Source: a virus
IMG/VR virus record: IMGVR_UViG_3300027969_000055
Coordinates: 52,371 to 116,370 of that record
DNA length: 64,000 bases
Strand: one strand, 5' to 3'
Below are positions 14,150 through 23,541 of this stretch, piece after piece. The stretch's first letter is position 1, and each line of letters begins with the position of its first letter. A program made the position numbers and the translations under genes. The notes beneath the pieces are model-generated. The model was given only the letters and a program-made list of their open reading frames with translations. It made no database searches and was not told where the DNA came from.

Positions 14150-15685
14150 TTATATCGAATTTAACAGATCATCATAATCTGCAGAAGTTCGATGGGCTTG
14201 GACTGGTACTGGCATAGCTAGTGCAACATCCATAGGTATTAAATTTTGAGGTAACGTTGTCGTATTCGTATGAGCCGTTTGATATTGAGTTCTCATTTGA
14301 TTTTCAAGAGATTGAGTATCATCATCATCAGAATAAAATTCACTAGCTGGATCGTATTCTTCAGTTAGTTTAGCAAATTCATAACTCATTCTATACATTT
14401 TAAAACTTTCGGTATAGCCGCCATCCCTATTTGCAATTAACTTAATCTTCATACGCTTTTCCATAGGTCCACGGATTAATCCAAATAGCGAATCTACTGT
14501 ATGCACTAGACCAAATGATTCTGCAATATCGGACATGCTTAAATCTTGATCATCAACTGCATCTCGTTTAATTTGAGTAGCTGTAATGATACACCATTCG
14601 TTTCGAATTGCAACTGCTCTAAGTTCTTCAGAAATAACTTTTATCTTTTCATAAGTATTTCCTTGCTCACGAAGAGGTCTCATTAAGTTAATATAATCAA
14701 CTACAATTACGGTAAATTTAATTCCAGAGTTTTGCTGAACTTTTAAAAAGTAGTTTTCCACATCAATCGCCGAAGCAGTGCCAGTTGGAAATTCCTTTAC
14801 TATTAACTGGCCAAGCTGAGGCATGTCTGATTTAAGCTTCTGTATTTTACTAGTAACTTCAGACACTTGACTATTATCTAACATTGAATCATAATCCTTA
14901 AATGGAATACTTAATATGCTTGAACCGAGTCTTTTCATGTATTTACGGTCAGATAATTCAAGAGTTCCTATTCCTACATGACAACCTGCCATAAATGCTC
15001 TGGCTGCAATATTTGAAAGTACCATTGATTTACCAACCTTCGGTCGACCTTGGAAAACAACTAGAGTTTTTGGGTTCCAACCTCCACCTAATGTTTTATC
15101 AAAGAATGGAAAGCCTGTTGGATTTCCAATTTTTGAAAGTTGAACGTGATCTACTGAAGTAAAAAAATTTAGACCGGACTCAGCACTAGTGAATGAAACA
15201 TTTAATTTACTGTTGAACTTCTCCCTAACATCATTTGTAATTAATTCAACATTCTCTGGATTAATATCAGTTGTCTTTAAATACGATAATACATCAATTA
15301 CTGACGCATTTAGGTTTTTATAGAAAATGAATGCTTTTGTGTACTTAAATAAAAATTCATAATTATAACTAGATAAGTCTACTTCAAACAGTGCATTAAA
15401 TTTTTGCTCTGAAATATCTAGATTTGAAAGATTTGCAATTTGTCGCAATTCATTTCGGGTTGGGATTTTAGAATATTCAATAAACCATTTTTTAGCTTCA
15501 CGATATAACCTTTGTAGAGTATCATCGTTAAAGTAATGAGCTTTAATTAATGGAATAACTTCTCGCTTGTCCAATGAGTCAAAGTTTTTAGGCTTAATGA
15601 TTACATCATTATCATCTTCAGTTAGAACAAAGTTAAAAATTATTTTTTCGAGAAGCTCAATGTTCTCTTTGAAATCTATCATCAT
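14150..15685 (-). CDS. 41: replicative DNA helicase (gp41/DnaB-like)
   Basis: The hexameric 5'-3' fork helicase. An N-terminal helical domain (1-180) precedes a RecA-type core: a conserved entry TGFPFFDKTLGGGW, Walker A GRPKVGKS at 213-220, Walker B VIVVDYINLM near 325, a DnaB motif 3-type ITATQIKRDA and an arginine-finger-type segment KLIANRDGG. The 511 residues compare with 475 in T4 gp41. The C-terminal 80 residues are acidic and low-complexity (YSDDDD), a possible partner-binding tail. It follows UvsX and a small gene, as in the T4 uvsX-40-41 order. Confidence 0.93.
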   Translation of the reverse strand: MMIDFKENIELLEKIIFNFVLTEDDNDVIIKPKNFDSLDKREVIPLIKAHYFNDDTLQRLYREAKKWFIEYSKIPTRNELRQIANLSNLDISEQKFNALFEVDLSSYNYEFLFKYTKAFIFYKNLNASVIDVLSYLKTTDINPENVELITNDVREKFNSKLNVSFTSAESGLNFFTSVDHVQLSKIGNPTGFPFFDKTLGGGWNPKTLVVFQGRPKVGKSMVLSNIAARAFMAGCHVGIGTLELSDRKYMKRLGSSILSIPFKDYDSMLDNSQVSEVTSKIQKLKSDMPQLGQLIVKEFPTGTASAIDVENYFLKVQQNSGIKFTVIVVDYINLMRPLREQGNTYEKIKVISEELRAVAIRNEWCIITATQIKRDAVDDQDLSMSDIAESFGLVHTVDSLFGLIRGPMEKRMKIKLIANRDGGYTESFKMYRMSYEFAKLTEEYDPASEFYSDDDDTQSLENQMRTQYQTAHTNTTTLPQNLIPMDVALAMPVPVQAHRTSADYDDLLNSI

Positions 15686-15690
15686 ATTTT

Positions 15691-16029
15691 TTAGTTCGAA
15701 ATTATATAAAATTTTAAAAATTCAGATTGGCTAATTATTATAAATTCACCTTTCTTAATTAGAATATTATCTTCTATTAAGTCTTTCATTAATAGTTTTA
15801 ATTTTTCTAAAAAATCGCTGGTCAATTTATCACCAAACACATATTTTAAAGTCTTAGTTGAGAATTTAATATCATCTAGGTCAAATTCCTTAGATTTGAC
15901 TTGGGTAACTTTTACAATGTATGAAATAATATCGAATACAAAGTCTTGCCTAGTTGGGTAGCTAGGCAAGGCTGTATGCGAGTCCAGTAAGTATTTAAGC
16001 GGAATATTTGGCTGTAATTTAAAGGTCAT
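15691..16029 (-). CDS. small hypothetical protein, possible winged-helix fold
   Basis: A 112-residue protein not recognised. It is largely helical, with a C-terminal pattern typical of a winged helix: a helix (FLEKLKLLMKDLIEDN) then a beta hairpin (ILIKKGEFIIIS). It overlaps the end of uvsX by 11 bases and ends 5 bases before the helicase start, so it occupies the place of gene 40 in T4. A replication or recombination accessory role is inferred from position only. Confidence 0.6.
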   Translation of the reverse strand: MTFKLQPNIPLKYLLDSHTALPSYPTRQDFVFDIISYIVKVTQVKSKEFDLDDIKFSTKTLKYVFGDKLTSDFLEKLKLLMKDLIEDNILIKKGEFIIISQSEFLKFYIISN

Positions 16030-17209
16030 TATCTGAATCAGTTAAATCTTCTAATTCGTCTATTTCCATTTCATCTATTCCATCTTGTGTTTCAGGAAAT
16101 TTAAACGTAGGCTTAATTGTAGTTTCGTCTAATTGAGTTAATACTTCATGAGTAAATAACCTAGCTGAGAAAAATTCTTTAACTGGAACAGCATCACCAT
16201 TATGTTTAATGATATAAGTTTTTCCAAGTTTCTTTGGTAGAAAATAGAATGTTTCACCAGCTACTTCAAATTTTGAACATAAGTCAGATTCATCTGGCTT
16301 TAGTTTAGAGAATTCCTTTTCAGTTAACTTATTACCTCTACCAACTCCACATGATTCCCAATTAACATATTGCTCAAGGCCAACGAATTGATTCATACCT
16401 TTATGGAATGAAATATGGAATTCAATATCAATAGGCCTAGCTAAACGATTCTTTTTAGTTTTAGAACGAACAATAATTCCAGTAGTAGTTTTGGCCTCAT
16501 CGCGAAGAGTTCCTTTACTCAACATTAAAATAATTGATGCAGAGAATTCCGGACCTCCACCACCTGACATACCCTTTGGCGTATATTGATCCATTGAGGC
16601 ATATGTATGATTTGTAAAAATAAATGGAACTTTATAATTTGAAAGATCTAGAGTTAATGATTTGAATAGAGACCTCATTTCCTTTGCACGAAGTCCCATA
16701 TCTGCAGCATTCTTACCTGCATCCATATCGCGTTGACTTTTATCCGTATCCAGCATTCCTACTGAATCTACAAATAGTGCAATCTTAAGTCCTGGGTTCT
16801 CCTTAATTGTTTCAATTAAGTCATGGACATAAAATTTAACTTCGCTAATAAGACCCATACGTAAATATTTTAATTTACTTAAGTCCACTCCGAATTTAAC
16901 ATAGTCACTTGAATCAATTGCACCTTCAGTGTCAATGTAAATTACCATGTAATCCATTTTTTGTAATTCACGAACTGCATTTAAACATAGGAATGTTTTA
17001 CCTGCACCGGAGTCGCCAGCAATTCCAATACTACGAGTATTGGGATAGCCTCCAAATAAGGAACCTGACATTTGAGCGTTTAATAAGTAATTTCCAGTTG
17101 GAATGTACTCTTCAATATCAGAGAATCCTCTGATTTCGATTTTTGATTTGACTTTTTTCTCGAGCAAGTCGTTAAACTTGGCGAATGCGTCCATTGTTGA
17201 TTTTGCCAT
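16019..17209 (-). CDS. uvsX: RecA-like recombinase UvsX
   Basis: The strand-exchange ATPase of T4-type recombination-dependent replication. The Walker A is GDSGAGKT at 65-72. Walker B lies in LKIALFVDSVGML. An L2-type segment (YTPKGMSGGGGPEFSAS) follows a TNHTYASMD motif. The 396 residues match T4 UvsX (391). The C-terminus is acidic (DELEDLTDSDNDL), as expected for a tail that modulates DNA and gp32 interactions. It heads the uvsX-15691-gp41 group. The call is secure. Confidence 0.95.
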   Translation of the reverse strand: MAKSTMDAFAKFNDLLEKKVKSKIEIRGFSDIEEYIPTGNYLLNAQMSGSLFGGYPNTRSIGIAGDSGAGKTFLCLNAVRELQKMDYMVIYIDTEGAIDSSDYVKFGVDLSKLKYLRMGLISEVKFYVHDLIETIKENPGLKIALFVDSVGMLDTDKSQRDMDAGKNAADMGLRAKEMRSLFKSLTLDLSNYKVPFIFTNHTYASMDQYTPKGMSGGGGPEFSASIILMLSKGTLRDEAKTTTGIIVRSKTKKNRLARPIDIEFHISFHKGMNQFVGLEQYVNWESCGVGRGNKLTEKEFSKLKPDESDLCSKFEVAGETFYFLPKKLGKTYIIKHNGDAVPVKEFFSARLFTHEVLTQLDETTIKPTFKFPETQDGIDEMEIDELEDLTDSDNDL

Positions 17210-17259: not shown

Positions 17260-17829
17260 TTAGTTAAAATATGAAGCAAGTAAAAAAGATCCTGATAGAA
17301 CCGTTGCATCTGGAAATTCGCCATTAACTACTTGGTGAAATCCTATATTGATGATTTTAGAATCATCCTTTGTAAAATTATCTTTTGACAGATTTCTAGT
17401 AAATTCAAAACCTTCTTTTGCTGGCTTGCCTAGATCAATTCCGTAACAGTGCATTGTTAGAGTTATTGGCGAATTCATTGCAATATCTCCCAAATAAAAT
17501 ATCTGATTTTCGGTTAAACCAAGCTGTTCAATATTTAATCCAGCTTCTTCGACTAGCGCTCTACATACTGAATCGTATGGGGTGCGATCTAGGTCTGAAT
17601 TAACTTCGTCTATAATTAGAGTATGTGCAGTTTGGCCGTTTGATTTATTTTGAAACTCAAGAGCATAAATAGACTTAATTTCATCTTCTGATGTTTTAGT
17701 AAAAGGTATCAAACAAATATATTCTGAATCAACTGATAAGTATTGAGCTGAGTGTTGATCGCGATTAACTGTTAATAAGTTAAATTTTCCTATTTTACTA
17801 GGAGTCTCATTAGATACTTGATTATGCAT
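17260..17829 (-). CDS. Nudix-like protein (degenerate motif)
   Basis: A 189-residue alpha/beta protein. The segment DSVCRALVEEAGL resembles the core of the Nudix box (R-E-U-x-E-E-x-G-U), keeping R and E-E but with Ala for the first Glu and no good Gly-x5-Glu before it. Flanking strands (AHTLIIDEVNSD and FYLGDIAMNSP) fit a Nudix fold with the box after a strand pair. T4 has a Nudix hydrolase NudE, but this is not a clear orthologue. Activity may be lost or altered. It overlaps the upstream gene by 8 bases and precedes nothing until the promoter gap of uvsX; the two are on the same strand. Confidence 0.45.
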   Translation of the reverse strand: MHNQVSNETPSKIGKFNLLTVNRDQHSAQYLSVDSEYICLIPFTKTSEDEIKSIYALEFQNKSNGQTAHTLIIDEVNSDLDRTPYDSVCRALVEEAGLNIEQLGLTENQIFYLGDIAMNSPITLTMHCYGIDLGKPAKEGFEFTRNLSKDNFTKDDSKIINIGFHQVVNGEFPDATVLSGSFLLASYFN

Positions 17830-18451
17830 TGGCTGTAGATTTTTTGGTAGGTGTTGTACTCAACATTTTCTTCATAGTCTTTTTAATTGAGTCAGCAGTT
17901 ACGTTATTATTTATATAGTCAGACAATTTTGTCAAAAACTCTTCTTTATTCTTAGAGTTTGAGTACATCATCTTTAATAAATTTTTACTAGGTAATTTAA
18001 TTTTAACGGAGAGCGCTAAATCTGTGTCTTCTAGTGAAAACATACCAAATAAGTCACCTGGATCAGTAGAAACTTTAAGTTGAGCTGGTTGAGCAGGCGG
18101 CGGAGCTATTGGTTTTGGTGCAATAACTTCAGCTCTAAATTCTTCTGGAATTTCTTCAGATACTTTAAAATCGTCAGTTAATGAAGGAATGTAATTGATT
18201 GACTGAATTTCAGCCATTGACATTGGCGGTTGATCTTCAGTGATCATCATTAAGTCAGAAGAAACTCTGTCAGTATCAAGTTGAGTACCGTCTGATAGTA
18301 CTGCCATGAATCTACCGTTTCTGGAAGGCAGAACATCTCTAACTTGAACTACTTTTCCTAGTTTAGTTTTATCATTGGTTTTTATCCATTGAAAGTCATT
18401 CGATTGGAAGCTGCTCTTTATTGCAACTAGGGTATCAATATCGTAATTCAT
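17822..18451 (-). CDS. hypothetical protein downstream of the split polymerase
   Basis: I chose the ATG giving MNYDIDTL (209 residues) rather than a GTG 36 bases upstream, which would overlap the polymerase gene. Residues 1-75 look like a small beta barrel of SH3/KOW type (GKVVQVRDVLPSRNGRFMAVL). A Pro/Ala-rich linker follows at about 112-130, then a helical C-terminal domain (about 150-209) with a Lys-rich end. It does not contain polymerase motifs B or C, so it is not the missing half of the polymerase. Function unknown. Confidence 0.6.
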   Translation of the reverse strand: MNYDIDTLVAIKSSFQSNDFQWIKTNDKTKLGKVVQVRDVLPSRNGRFMAVLSDGTQLDTDRVSSDLMMITEDQPPMSMAEIQSINYIPSLTDDFKVSEEIPEEFRAEVIAPKPIAPPPAQPAQLKVSTDPGDLFGMFSLEDTDLALSVKIKLPSKNLLKMMYSNSKNKEEFLTKLSDYINNNVTADSIKKTMKKMLSTTPTKKSTANA

Positions 18452-18470: not shown

Positions 18471-19853
18471 TTAAGCCACTTTTTCACTTGATAATTGCTC
18501 TTCTAATTTTTTCATTTGATTCTTTGTATCAACTCTACCGTTGTATAATCTAGTAAGAATTGTTCGAGCGGCTGAATCATTTTTATTTGTGAAGACCGTA
18601 TCGTTTTTTGTTAATATTTGGTCAGGTTGTATTTCAATACCAGGTTTGGTTTTTCCTAAATAAGAGTCTGGTGAAATATTAAATTGAATTTGAATGTTTG
18701 GATACATTGATGCAAAGTCAAAACATGAAACGTATTTGTAATATCCAGGTTCAGGCTTTGCAACATAGGCTCCATCGTATGTTGCATCTTCTTCCAATTC
18801 TCTTCGGTCGTTTGCCATATACCGGCCTCGGTCTAGAAACTCACGACACATTAATGATTCAGTAATGAATACTGCTGAGAATACTTTTGAAACATCGACC
18901 TTTGCAAATTTTGAAATTGCAAATGCAACATCAAGTAGTCCAAGTTTATCTTCAATCAACTTAATAAGAATTGTATCGATGATATTATACTTAATAAAGT
19001 TTTCAATATCTTGTTGAGCTTCCATCATGGTTGCATATTCACTATGGAGTTTGGTTGTTCCTAATACTAAATTCGCAATATAGTCTAACTTATAATTCTC
19101 AACTACTTTATAAGGTTTAGTATTCATAAATACTTCCATGTAATCTAAAAGACCTAAATGAACCGGCATTTTTGATTTACCAATTAATGTTTTAGAAGGC
19201 ATGGTTTTCATTGGATCAATATCTAATTTTTTACAACGGTTAATTAGATAAATCCAGTCAAATCCAATAACATTCCAACCAGTTAAGAATGGAATCTTTG
19301 GAAGAACTTTATGGAAGAAGGTTTTCATTAACTCTTCTTCAGTTTCAAAGAACAAATATTTAAGAGTAAAGGTTTGACCGTGAGCTTTGAAATATTCATT
19401 GACTTCATCTTGCATTTGTAAAATTGGAGACTCTTCTAATTTCTTCATGGTTGACATTACAAAACAAATATTATCTTCATTAACAAATGTAATCAAGTTA
19501 ACTGGCATTGCTGCTTTTGCTGGATCAGGAAACTCTTGCGAAGTTAACTGAATCTCAATATCTAAATAGTACTTCTTTGGGCTATCATCTGAATAAATTG
19601 AAGCAAGTTCGGTTTCGTCTAATCTGGTTTGAGTTAATTCCTCAAGTCTAAAACGACTTAACCATTTACCTTGAACCTTCTTTAGGAACTTTCCATCCCA
19701 ATTTCTGTGTTCAGTTGGAGTTGGAGTTAAGTTCCAATTATAGAGATCATGTGGAAGTATTGGCTTTTTCATAAAGCCAATGTTACCGTCTGGTTTATAA
19801 TAAGAAATAACAAGAGTCGAGTCTTCTGTATGAAATTCTGTGCTTACAATCAT
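18471..19853 (-). CDS. 43A: DNA polymerase family B, N-terminal half (gp43A-like): exonuclease plus motif A
   Basis: The N-terminal half of a T4 gp43-type replicative polymerase. Exo I is YLDIE (D98, E100), Exo II GWNVIGFDW (N194, D199), Exo III YNIIDT (Y289, D293), and the palm motif A is FDFASMYPNI (D379). The chain stops at residue 460, in what should be the first fingers helix. Motif B (K-x3-N-S-x-Y-G) and motif C (D-T-D) are absent, against 898 residues in T4. No other reading frame in the window carries the C-terminal half. The stop TAA is followed by a normal-looking gene, not polymerase remnants. I infer a two-subunit polymerase with the second part encoded elsewhere, as known for some Aeromonas T4-like phages. 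Confidence 0.9.
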   Translation of the reverse strand: MIVSTEFHTEDSTLVISYYKPDGNIGFMKKPILPHDLYNWNLTPTPTEHRNWDGKFLKKVQGKWLSRFRLEELTQTRLDETELASIYSDDSPKKYYLDIEIQLTSQEFPDPAKAAMPVNLITFVNEDNICFVMSTMKKLEESPILQMQDEVNEYFKAHGQTFTLKYLFFETEEELMKTFFHKVLPKIPFLTGWNVIGFDWIYLINRCKKLDIDPMKTMPSKTLIGKSKMPVHLGLLDYMEVFMNTKPYKVVENYKLDYIANLVLGTTKLHSEYATMMEAQQDIENFIKYNIIDTILIKLIEDKLGLLDVAFAISKFAKVDVSKVFSAVFITESLMCREFLDRGRYMANDRRELEEDATYDGAYVAKPEPGYYKYVSCFDFASMYPNIQIQFNISPDSYLGKTKPGIEIQPDQILTKNDTVFTNKNDSAARTILTRLYNGRVDTKNQMKKLEEQLSSEKVA

Positions 19854-19871: not shown

Positions 19872-20351
19872 TTAATAACCTCTTTGTTGGCGAGCTTTAT
19901 TCTCTTCGTTCTTAGACATGTACATATTGAACATTTCTTGAGAAGTCATTCCAACTGATATTGCATAGTTCATAAAGAAGTGAAGCATATCGACTATTTC
20001 AAATTTGCACTCAATCTGATCAGATTCTGATAAATCTGAGAACTTTTTATCTGAATATCCTTCATGTGCTGATTTCCAGCGCTTCCAAATTGCATTTCCT
20101 GAACCGTCATTGATTCCGCCAAGAGCATCGGTTGCTTCGTGGATTTCGTCAATCATTGCATGGTTATTCATATGCCAAAATGTCATAAGTTCTCTAAGAT
20201 TCATGTTTGCAAAGTCATACCCGTAAACATTCTTTTGAGTATCAGCCTGAATGTCCATGATTTGACCTAGGGTGTCTTTGTTTACTTCTGTTCGGTCTGA
20301 CCAGTGATCTTTAATTTCTAATTTTGCGCAAGAGTTATCTATATTTGCCAT
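19872..20351 (-). CDS. 56: dCTP/dUTP pyrophosphatase (gp56-like)
   Basis: Hydrolyses dCTP (and dUTP) to the monophosphate, giving dCMP for gp42 and keeping cytosine out of phage DNA in T4. The C-terminal half closely follows T4 gp56: WKRWKSAH, DLSESDQIECKFEIVDMLHFFMN, and the final KNEENKARQQRGY (KNKENFARQDRGY in T4). Metal-binding acidic pairs are E69/E72 and E118/D121 of the all-alpha NTP pyrophosphatase fold. The 159 residues compare with 171 in T4. It is the first gene of the minus-strand replication block. The call is strong. Confidence 0.9.
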   Translation of the reverse strand: MANIDNSCAKLEIKDHWSDRTEVNKDTLGQIMDIQADTQKNVYGYDFANMNLRELMTFWHMNNHAMIDEIHEATDALGGINDGSGNAIWKRWKSAHEGYSDKKFSDLSESDQIECKFEIVDMLHFFMNYAISVGMTSQEMFNMYMSKNEENKARQQRGY

Positions 20352-20514: not shown

Positions 20515-23500
20515 ATGGCAGAAAAATTAAATCTGAACAGATACAAGTCAAGCGGTGTCTATACAGTAGAAATTGATGAGAGCACTAACCTTTCATTACC
20601 TCTTTCAACTGGAAGATTGGTAATTGGCTCGAGTAAAAAAGGACCTATCAATTCAGTAGTACTAGTTAATGACTTACGTACTCTATCGGCAGTCTATGGC
20701 GATGTTGACTCTAAATTAGAAAAAAACGGTAATTATTTTCATAGAACAATTCAAGTTGCACTAAGAAATGGACCGGTTTATGCTCTGAATTTATTGCCGA
20801 TTGCTGACTCAGATGTTGCATACTTTACAACATTTAATACAGAAGCAGCTTCAAATAATTCTACATGGTCTGCAAGTTCCTATAAAAGTAGCATAGCTGA
20901 TTTTTATAATACTCAGAAACTATGGTTTGCTGATGTTGATGCGGTTAACAAATATAAAAATTTAGCCCTAGGCGATTCATTCCCAGCGACTGGAACAGTA
21001 GATAAAGATGCAAACAAATTGCTAAGCTTAGTTAACTTGTCTAAGAAACCTGTTACCGCATGGGCTAGAATAGCAGATACCACTGGATATGATATTAAAG
21101 TTAAGGAATATTATAAATTGCTTGGAGATAAGGTTGAGGTTCCTGATTTCTTACATCCAGATGATTATGTTGCTGACTACTTTGTAGAATTAGCAGTGGT
21201 TGAAGGAGATTGGTCAGACTCTCTTAGATTATCTAAAGACCCAATTTATCAACAATATTTTAATGCAAGCGGTATTATTTTAGCAAAGTTAAATGATTTC
21301 TTATCATTAAAAGAAGTTACAGTAGTTAACCGTACAATTGGAGCAATTATCCCAGAATTTACAGACCTAGCTGGATCGCCAGCTTCACTAGACCATTTAT
21401 TTAATAATAAATTCTCTCAATCCGGAGTTTATTGTGCTCTTGACTACAAGAAAATTGATATGATTGATTTACTGAACAATCCGGTATTTGATAGTGGTAG
21501 TGCAACTGAATCAATTGAATCACAGCGTCTTGACCTAGTAGGTTACGGATTTGATGAAATTGATTCTCAAGTTTATTCAGTAGATACAGGTAATCCAGAT
21601 CTATCAATTGAGCCAGTTAAATTAATTGATGTATTGAGTTACAAAAAAACTGCTGGTTACAAATATTATTTCAATATTCCAACAACTTCACCTGATAATT
21701 ACGATATTTTACCAGGCGACCCTCTTTCTCTCGGTCAAATGTATACGGTTAATCCAACTGGTTCTGATAATAATTATATTATTGCAACAATCGGTAGTCC
21801 ACTGTATAATGCATGGGCAAATGGATTTATTAAAACTGGAGATACTCTACTTACGGGATCTACTAGATACTTATCAACGGATGGAGTAGTTAAAACAGTT
21901 ATGAATGGAATGGTTAAAGTTAGCTATATTGAATTTTATGCGTATAGCGATTTAACTTATACTAACCAAGTTGATGCAGCTGCAATAACTAGTGGATCTA
22001 ATAAGTATTTGCATATTGTGTCATCTACGCCTACTGAATTTAACATTGATTTTGACTTGACTGACACTGACATATTTATGCCAGGTTTTAATTATTTTGC
22101 GCCTAACCAATTAGTATTTACCTTAACTCCTACCCTTTATGGAAATCCAGCAAAAAAGGAAACTGCAAATACCAATGCACCCTATGATGCAGATTTAAGA
22201 GGTGATATTGAAAGTTTTATTAAAACAGGTCAATACGTTAAAGCTGGAGTACTTACTGACGTAAATGGTGATCCAGTTATTCGTGAACGCTTATTGAAAA
22301 TTAAGTCAGTTTACGCAAAGGCTGTAACTGTTACCTATTTAGGAGATCCTACTAAGACTCTACAGTATACAATTACAGTAGACTCTCCATTAGACTCAAA
22401 TGTAACAGGTATCGATCTTACTGGTTCAATACTAAAGGTATATAAAGGAATTAAAAATTACGTAACTAACCTTAGAGGTTTTTATGTACCAGCAATATCA
22501 ATTGATGAAGTTGGTTTATATCCTAATGGAACATCGGCTCGTCAAGATAAGATCCTTGATTATATGTTCAATGATACTAATATTGCAGCAACTATTGCAG
22601 ATAATGAGACCTTAAACTTCCGTTATATTATTGATTCGTTTGAAGGTCAAATTGCACCTGCTTCTAAACAGCAACTTGCACAACTTGCAGCAAATCACGG
22701 AAAAGCACTAGCTATCTGTAATGCTCCATCTTTTGCTCAATATGAAAAATCAATTGACCCTAGTTTTATCGATTTTAATACTAACTTAGTATCAACTGAA
22801 TATATTTCAACTGGTGGTAACCTATCTTCAAATCCTCAATTTGTATTTGGATTTGCAAGTGGAGATAAAAATGGTATTGCAATTTCTTCTTATGCTGCAT
22901 ACTTTATGCCTAACTTGGTAATATTTGATAACGGTAGAAGTAAATCAGTTCCGCCTGCTGCGTATATTGCAAATGCATATATGCGAAAATATTCAAGTGG
23001 AAATACTTTCTCAATCGTTGCAGGTAAACGAGGTATTATTACTGATGCCGAAGTAACTGGAGTAGAATATGATTTAACTAATGATGATAGAGATTATTTA
23101 GAGCCAGTAGGCTTTAATATGATCGTTAGACGTAGAGGTTTTGGAGTAATGATTTTCTCAAATAACACAGGTTATCAAAGAGTAAAATCTGCACTTAATA
23201 ACGTTCACGTTAGAGAAGCCCTAGTAACAATTGAAAGAGATATTGAGAGAATCTTATTGAATTACCTATTTGAATTCAATGATCCAACTACTAGACTAAG
23301 AGTTAAAACATTAGTTAAAAACTATTTAGAAGCAGTTCAAGATGCTAGAGGTATTTCAACGTTTGACGTAATATTTGATGATTCTAATAATGGATCTGAG
23401 GTTCTTGAAAATAACGCTGGTGTAATTGATATTATTGTTGATTTCCCAAGAGGTATTCAAAAGTTCATCAACCGTATCACAATCACAAGAGCTGGAGGCC

Positions 23501-23541
23501 AATTAGCTTCTGCGTCTACTGGATTTACGCCTTCATTCTAA
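20515..23541 (+). CDS. contractile tail sheath protein (gp18-like)
   Basis: The sheath protein that contracts to drive the tube through the envelope. The N-terminus (KSSGVYTVEIDES...GRLVIGSSKKGP) matches the conserved start of T4-type sheath proteins. The C-terminal domain (VNFRYIIDSFEG-like region, FDVIFDDSNN, then IDIIVDFPRGIQKFINRITITRAG) carries the strand-exchange arms. The 1008 residues exceed T4 gp18 (659); the extra length lies in the middle (about 120-660), where surface-exposed insertion domains occur. Two late-promoter motifs precede it and a perfect hairpin terminator follows, making a single-gene unit. The call is secure. Confidence 0.93.
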   Translation: MAEKLNLNRYKSSGVYTVEIDESTNLSLPLSTGRLVIGSSKKGPINSVVLVNDLRTLSAVYGDVDSKLEKNGNYFHRTIQVALRNGPVYALNLLPIADSDVAYFTTFNTEAASNNSTWSASSYKSSIADFYNTQKLWFADVDAVNKYKNLALGDSFPATGTVDKDANKLLSLVNLSKKPVTAWARIADTTGYDIKVKEYYKLLGDKVEVPDFLHPDDYVADYFVELAVVEGDWSDSLRLSKDPIYQQYFNASGIILAKLNDFLSLKEVTVVNRTIGAIIPEFTDLAGSPASLDHLFNNKFSQSGVYCALDYKKIDMIDLLNNPVFDSGSATESIESQRLDLVGYGFDEIDSQVYSVDTGNPDLSIEPVKLIDVLSYKKTAGYKYYFNIPTTSPDNYDILPGDPLSLGQMYTVNPTGSDNNYIIATIGSPLYNAWANGFIKTGDTLLTGSTRYLSTDGVVKTVMNGMVKVSYIEFYAYSDLTYTNQVDAAAITSGSNKYLHIVSSTPTEFNIDFDLTDTDIFMPGFNYFAPNQLVFTLTPTLYGNPAKKETANTNAPYDADLRGDIESFIKTGQYVKAGVLTDVNGDPVIRERLLKIKSVYAKAVTVTYLGDPTKTLQYTITVDSPLDSNVTGIDLTGSILKVYKGIKNYVTNLRGFYVPAISIDEVGLYPNGTSARQDKILDYMFNDTNIAATIADNETLNFRYIIDSFEGQIAPASKQQLAQLAANHGKALAICNAPSFAQYEKSIDPSFIDFNTNLVSTEYISTGGNLSSNPQFVFGFASGDKNGIAISSYAAYFMPNLVIFDNGRSKSVPPAAYIANAYMRKYSSGNTFSIVAGKRGIITDAEVTGVEYDLTNDDRDYLEPVGFNMIVRRRGFGVMIFSNNTGYQRVKSALNNVHVREALVTIERDIERILLNYLFEFNDPTTRLRVKTLVKNYLEAVQDARGISTFDVIFDDSNNGSEVLENNAGVIDIIVDFPRGIQKFINRITITRAGGQLASASTGFTPSF

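Follow-up and report, generated by a model that had tools for sequence, protein, structure and literature searches.

Background

The closest described counterparts of the locus reported here are the gp43A/43B polymerases of Aeromonas phages 44RR and 25, in which a T4-type family B DNA polymerase (PolB) is likewise cut between motifs A and B, within the fingers. The two halves are adjacent in these phages, with intercistronic sequence (44RR) or a seg endonuclease (25), and separately made 43A and 43B of phage 25 co-purify and show polymerase activity (PMC2988022). The present locus lies in a 64,000-nucleotide stretch of DNA from a large freshwater virus of bacteria (the window), positions 52371-116370 of the 116,370-bp record IMGVR_UViG_3300027969_000055 (G000). 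It encodes an N-terminal polymerase half (PolN), whose C-terminal counterpart (PolC) is 38 kb away, with no mobile element.

The two-gene PolB of phages PAU, Tenacibaculum PTm1/pT24 and Chryseobacterium MA9V (PHROGs 2062 and 1918) has the same fission point and belongs to the same clade; its two genes are annotated separately and lie just a few kb apart, against 38 kb here, and PTm1, unlike PolN/PolC, has a third break at motif C with an intein and a VSR endonuclease. Lak megaphages and the 460-735-kb phages LR756500-504 and LR745206 share the fission and have unlinked halves, mostly 100-280 kb apart on opposite strands, whereas PolN and PolC are on the same strand. In Rhodothermus phage RM378 the exonuclease and polymerase parts are presumably separate genes; its polymerase open reading frame (ORF) spans profile positions 41-378 unbroken, so there is no fingers split, unlike in PolN/PolC. 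Pseudomonas phage MIJ3 is another jumbo phage with PolB in two ORFs, but there an intein splits the enzyme, and an HNH endonuclease ORF sits between the adjacent genes (PMC6892783). Archaeal PolB3 (Methanothermobacter, Nanoarchaeum), a cellular enzyme of another PolB group, is likewise encoded by two genes, non-adjacent in Nanoarchaeum (PMC4104785); that split is attributed to inteins, and the Nanoarchaeum parts are trans-spliced.

Split gp43 is already known: PHROGs lists the halves as separate families, and pieces are annotated in PTm1, PAU and MA9V. A search of the open literature found the Aeromonas, MIJ3, archaeal and phiKZ-type splits and no account of a clade-wide unlinked fission or of re-fusion. 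What is new against these systems is a fission that is unlinked, clade-wide and likely ancient.

PolN and PolC divide the motifs of a T4-type polymerase

PolN (460 amino acids (aa); window 18471-19853, minus strand) comprises exonuclease motifs I (LDIEI), II (GWNVIGFD) and III (YNIIDT), motif A (DFASMYP) and the first fingers helix. It matched the Pfam domain DNA_pol_B_exo1 (PF03104) and covered only profile positions 16-144 of 453 in DNA_pol_B (E=1.7e-13). T4/RB69 gp43 were its best relatives of solved structure (E ~2.5e-28), and the T4 exonuclease residues D112, E114, D219 and D324 are kept together with motif A D408; PolN has the DEDD exonuclease motifs I-III of the T4-type family B polymerases (gp43). 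The ORF stops between motifs A and B. A preliminary description of the window, made from the sequence alone, had proposed a protein with intact exonuclease motifs and motif A that stops at residue 460 before motif B, and the ORF, the Pfam matches and the conserved T4 residues bear this out.

When the PF00136 profile was run on the whole of G000, exactly two places were found, the window ORF and G000:32598-33047. The second falls outside the window, which agrees with the earlier statement that no C-terminal half occurs within it. The same description had pointed to an unlinked partner with motif B and D-T-D elsewhere in the genome, and this partner was found: PolC (540 aa; G000:31404-33026, the same as L002:307-1929; minus strand), 37.8 kb from PolN on the same contig and strand. 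PolC begins MSKQLEQQIKSLDLKQNAIKILINSFYGAFGN and carries motif B (KILINSFYG), motif C (YTDTDS) and the palm motif AKKKY (KKKY). The palm motifs A and C and the fingers motif B of gp43 are present across the pair, A in PolN and B and C in PolC. PolN and PolC matched the split families PHROG 2062 and PHROG 1918 with E=2e-72 and 3e-62, respectively.

On T4 gp43 the break corresponds to about residues 499 and 538, between motifs A and B, consistent with the proposal of a split within the fingers. In PolN the fingers helix runs for 20-25 residues before the chain ends, and PolC opens directly with its own ATG and helix. Because intact cyanophage polymerases have just a short turn at this site (EETPT in Syn1), the two chains together lose nothing essential. 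Since this turn joins two fingers helices in RB69/T4 gp43, a chain break at the fingertip should be tolerated, and the two chains would be able to pair without a covalent bond.

We consider it highly probable (about 0.9) that PolN forms the exonuclease-plus-palm half in a replicative T4-type polymerase built from two separately encoded, non-covalently assembled chains. The N chain would supply the exonuclease, motif A and the fingers helix that leads out to the tip. The C chain would supply the helix that leads back, bearing motif B, along with motif C, the KKKY palm motif and the thumb. The chains would fold and pair without covalent joining to give one active polymerase.

The split is conserved in relatives of the window

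A search of the viral collection returned 46 N-half loci and 31 C-half loci. All complete N halves share one end point, and records long enough for both halves contain exactly two PolB pieces each. PolN and PolC were 38 kb apart in two relatives (G001 and G002). In four contigs of 270-271 kb whose ends are shifted (G007, G008, G009, G019) the distance was about 44 kb; it was 45-49 kb in a further six (G010, G011, G013, G017, G018, G021) and 67 kb in G024, so that the window's group spans 38-67 kb. Closer linkage was seen at 2 kb (G040) and 5-19 kb (G039, G034, G032, G033, G036, G037, G042). Strong purifying selection acts on both halves, which diverge in step: the ratio of nonsynonymous to synonymous divergence (dN/dS; Nei-Gojobori, between members with unsaturated dS) was about 0.03-0.1 in both, with dN/dS values between the window and G007 of 0.073/1.22 for PolN and 0.116/1.48 for PolC, and pairwise dN of the two halves correlated with r=0.99 (a descriptive value, as the pairs are not independent).

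The same break was found in Lak phages, with the halves of Lak-A2 222 kb apart on opposite strands, in LR756504 (281 kb apart), LR745206 (102 kb), LR756502 (133 kb), LR756501 and LR756500 (10 kb), and in PAU, PTm1, pT24 and MA9V-2, with halves a few kb apart. A search of viral contigs for distant relatives gave 79 new loci, partly overlapping with the contigs behind the 46 and 31 half loci; 78 had no joined C half in the ORF and one was fused.

A 254-kb contig (L121, CAIWBA010000291.1) with both halves 38 kb apart belongs to a metagenome-assembled genome named uncultured Bacteroidetes bacterium, which is either a hint of the host or a binning accident. The hosts of the clade are most likely Bacteroidetes bacteria.

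Age of the fission and an apparently re-fused relative

Trees of the N half, the C half and both combined gave one clade, with support of 100/99, 100/100 and 100/100, that excludes T4, 44RR, cyanophages and pelagiphages, and the N and C trees were congruent. By trees and family matches, PolN and PolC group with the PHROG 2062/1918 split polymerases of Bacteroidota-type jumbo phages, while 44RR groups with T4 (100/100). Because a single clade of all split members including 44RR was rejected in the approximately unbiased (AU) test (p-AU 7e-7), and a single clade without 44RR and with MaF61 outside was not (p-AU 0.27), the trees indicate that the fingers have been split at least twice in T4-type phages. 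The preliminary description had likened PolN to the Aeromonas split; the likeness holds for the kind of split, a gp43 divided in the fingers, but not for the event, as the present one is independent (AU p=7e-7), wider and apparently much older. PolN and PolC show neither common descent with the Aeromonas split nor adjacent genes with intercistronic sequence or a homing endonuclease at the break. An ancient, single fission in an ancestor of the Bacteroidota-type jumbo/huge phage clade is the simplest reading and a likely one.

One relative (L193:5001-7640, IMGVR_UViG_3300000563_000024) has a single ORF of 877-889 aa with all motifs. In the N tree it groups with the split L170 (97/97) and in the C tree it groups with L170 and L160 (100/98); its placement with the intact outgroup was rejected (p-AU 0.0005). 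Its linker stretch SSMLKEEIERLE resembles the leader of the split C half, SSREEILKEIDRLE, and is likely a fusion scar. From tree position and linker, L193 appears to be a natural re-fusion of split halves, the alternative being repeated splitting.

Under that alternative the fingers would have been split many times over in the clade, with the intact L193 and MaF61 as relics; the two-chain mechanism would be unaffected. Its attractions are that an independent split at this very place in 44RR marks the site as fission-prone, and that two intact members exist, of which MaF61 is not clearly placed; with 78 of 79 distant loci split, L193 nested beside split relatives in both trees and its linker so like a split leader, we regard it as unlikely. 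On the preferred reading, one ancient fission would have left PolN at the 43-uvsX-41 locus, PolC would have been relocated (here beside the primase), and at least one lineage would have re-fused the halves.

Several points weigh against this history and against a working two-chain enzyme. MaF61 is intact and may sit either at or inside the split clade. PolN and PolC may be expected to assemble physically and to be active, but for this clade both assembly and activity rest on the analogy with phage 25 43A/43B. G000 is a fragment, so a second polymerase could in principle lie elsewhere in that genome, and AlphaFold models of the single halves (shallow alignments) were of low confidence.

A two-piece, unlinked replicative polymerase kept in a clade with genomes of up to 735 kb offers a natural experiment on how essential enzymes turn multi-subunit, with an evolutionary series that runs from halves 2-20 kb apart, through spacings of 38-67 kb and then of more than 100 kb with the halves on opposite strands, to re-fusion. 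Such phages may be missed or misread by scans and marker-gene trees built around a full-length PolB.

The two halves at the level of the protein

It is highly improbable that the halves work separately, for example with PolN as a stand-alone exonuclease and another polymerase replicating the genome. The exonuclease domain of PolN looks complete, but motif A in PolN and motif C in PolC are parts of one active site and are both conserved, the two halves diverge in step, and a Pfam search of three 253-270-kb relatives (G007, G017, G018) found neither PolA nor PolIII-alpha; PolA was also not detected in G000.

Very little credence can be given to the idea that a split intein or trans-splicing intron joins the halves once they are expressed. 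Split inteins with endonucleases are known at another site (motif C) in PTm1, and in MIJ3 PolB (PMC6892783), but the positions at which PolN ends and PolC starts leave no room for intein parts: there are no extra residues, and no intein N or C part, at either end. A conserved gene starts about 20 nt past the PolN stop, and an Rfam scan found no intron at the break, its single match being due to chance. The preliminary description had seen no endonuclease at the break and had raised an intein or intron as a point to check; Pfam and PHROG scans showed no endonuclease in the neighbourhoods of the two halves, and together with the Rfam scan they gave no intein or intron at either break end.

A truncation by assembly error, frameshift or decay, with the true gene intact or dead, could not have been dismissed from a single window, and a restored frame had been named in advance as the outcome that would undo the split, but this reading has a negligible probability and is already refuted because the split is kept in independently assembled contigs: relatives at 65-98% identity break at the same place, complete N halves share their end point, the C half exists, purifying selection on the two halves is strong and the gene downstream is kept.

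Further interruptions of the C half near motif C were noted in PTm1 (L116:9522-12328, the annotated intein and VSR endonuclease) and, with intein-like ends, in Lak-A2 (L088) and LR756500 (L099). Between the halves of MA9V-2, just ahead of the C half, is a gene for a TnpB-family RNA-guided endonuclease (L090:7660-8826).

Gene neighbourhoods of PolN and PolC

Wherever the flanks permit a view, at practically all loci of the window's group, the order around PolN was sheath - (MazG) - PolN - two genes - uvsX - one gene - gp41, and that around PolC was uvsW - ... - PolC - primase - gp4 - portal. Because the PolN neighbourhood equals the cyanophage order 43-uvsX-41 plus extra genes, PolN appears to have stayed at the ancestral locus and PolC to have moved. 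The intact polymerase of MaF61 (994 aa) is also one gene away from a tail sheath gene.

The four genes described here downstream of PolN are on the minus strand. The first (17822-18451, 209 aa), of unassigned function, is kept after PolN in relatives; it matched nothing in Pfam or PHROG and bears no sign of a polymerase C half, an intein or an endonuclease, as expected from the earlier remark that the next gene is unrelated to the polymerase. A GTG start at 18487, which would give an apparent 17-bp overlap with PolN, was dropped for this gene in favour of ATG 18451 as the likely start. It is followed by a second gene of unassigned function (17260-17829, 189 aa), found between PolN and uvsX in most relatives, a UvsX/RecA-type recombinase (16019-17209; PF00154, E=2.1e-19) and a gp41-type replicative helicase (DnaB_C; 14150-15685; PF03796, E=3.5e-23). 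Directly upstream of PolN, and probably in the same operon, is a MazG/dUTPase-like nucleotide pyrophosphohydrolase gene (19872-20351, minus strand; phrog_173, E=4.4e-17; weak PF08761). The divergent neighbour, conserved at this position, encodes a tail sheath protein (20515-23541, plus strand; PF17482, E=8.4e-7).

A conserved AT-rich element of about 75 bp lies upstream of PolC (L002:1930-2000), with a TTTGGTT...AAACCAAA inverted repeat, and suggests that PolC has its own promoter; it was searched for upstream of PolN and not found there. Speculatively, the fission may be of use and not just tolerated. Separate control of the exonuclease/helicase-side and primase-side chains could turn polymerase assembly into a two-key switch for replication across the huge-phage clade, a doubtful idea which, if true, would explain the wide retention of the split and the rarity of re-fusion.

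In the window's group PolC also continues for about 175 aa past the thumb (residues 366-540; L002:307-832); this conserved C-terminal extension is shorter in several relatives and had no match in PHROGs or PDB sequences. In L191 and L188 a 248-aa gene between the linked halves is clamp-like by eye and had no PHROG match; the PF02916 clamp profile matched nowhere, controls included. In L036, L037 and L038, between about 900 and 4000, some 2-3 kb of extra DNA separates the MazG gene from PolN compared with other relatives. In L027 (6657-8717), two separate stretches with about 2 kb between them match uvsX, which suggests that an intron, intein or endonuclease has been inserted.
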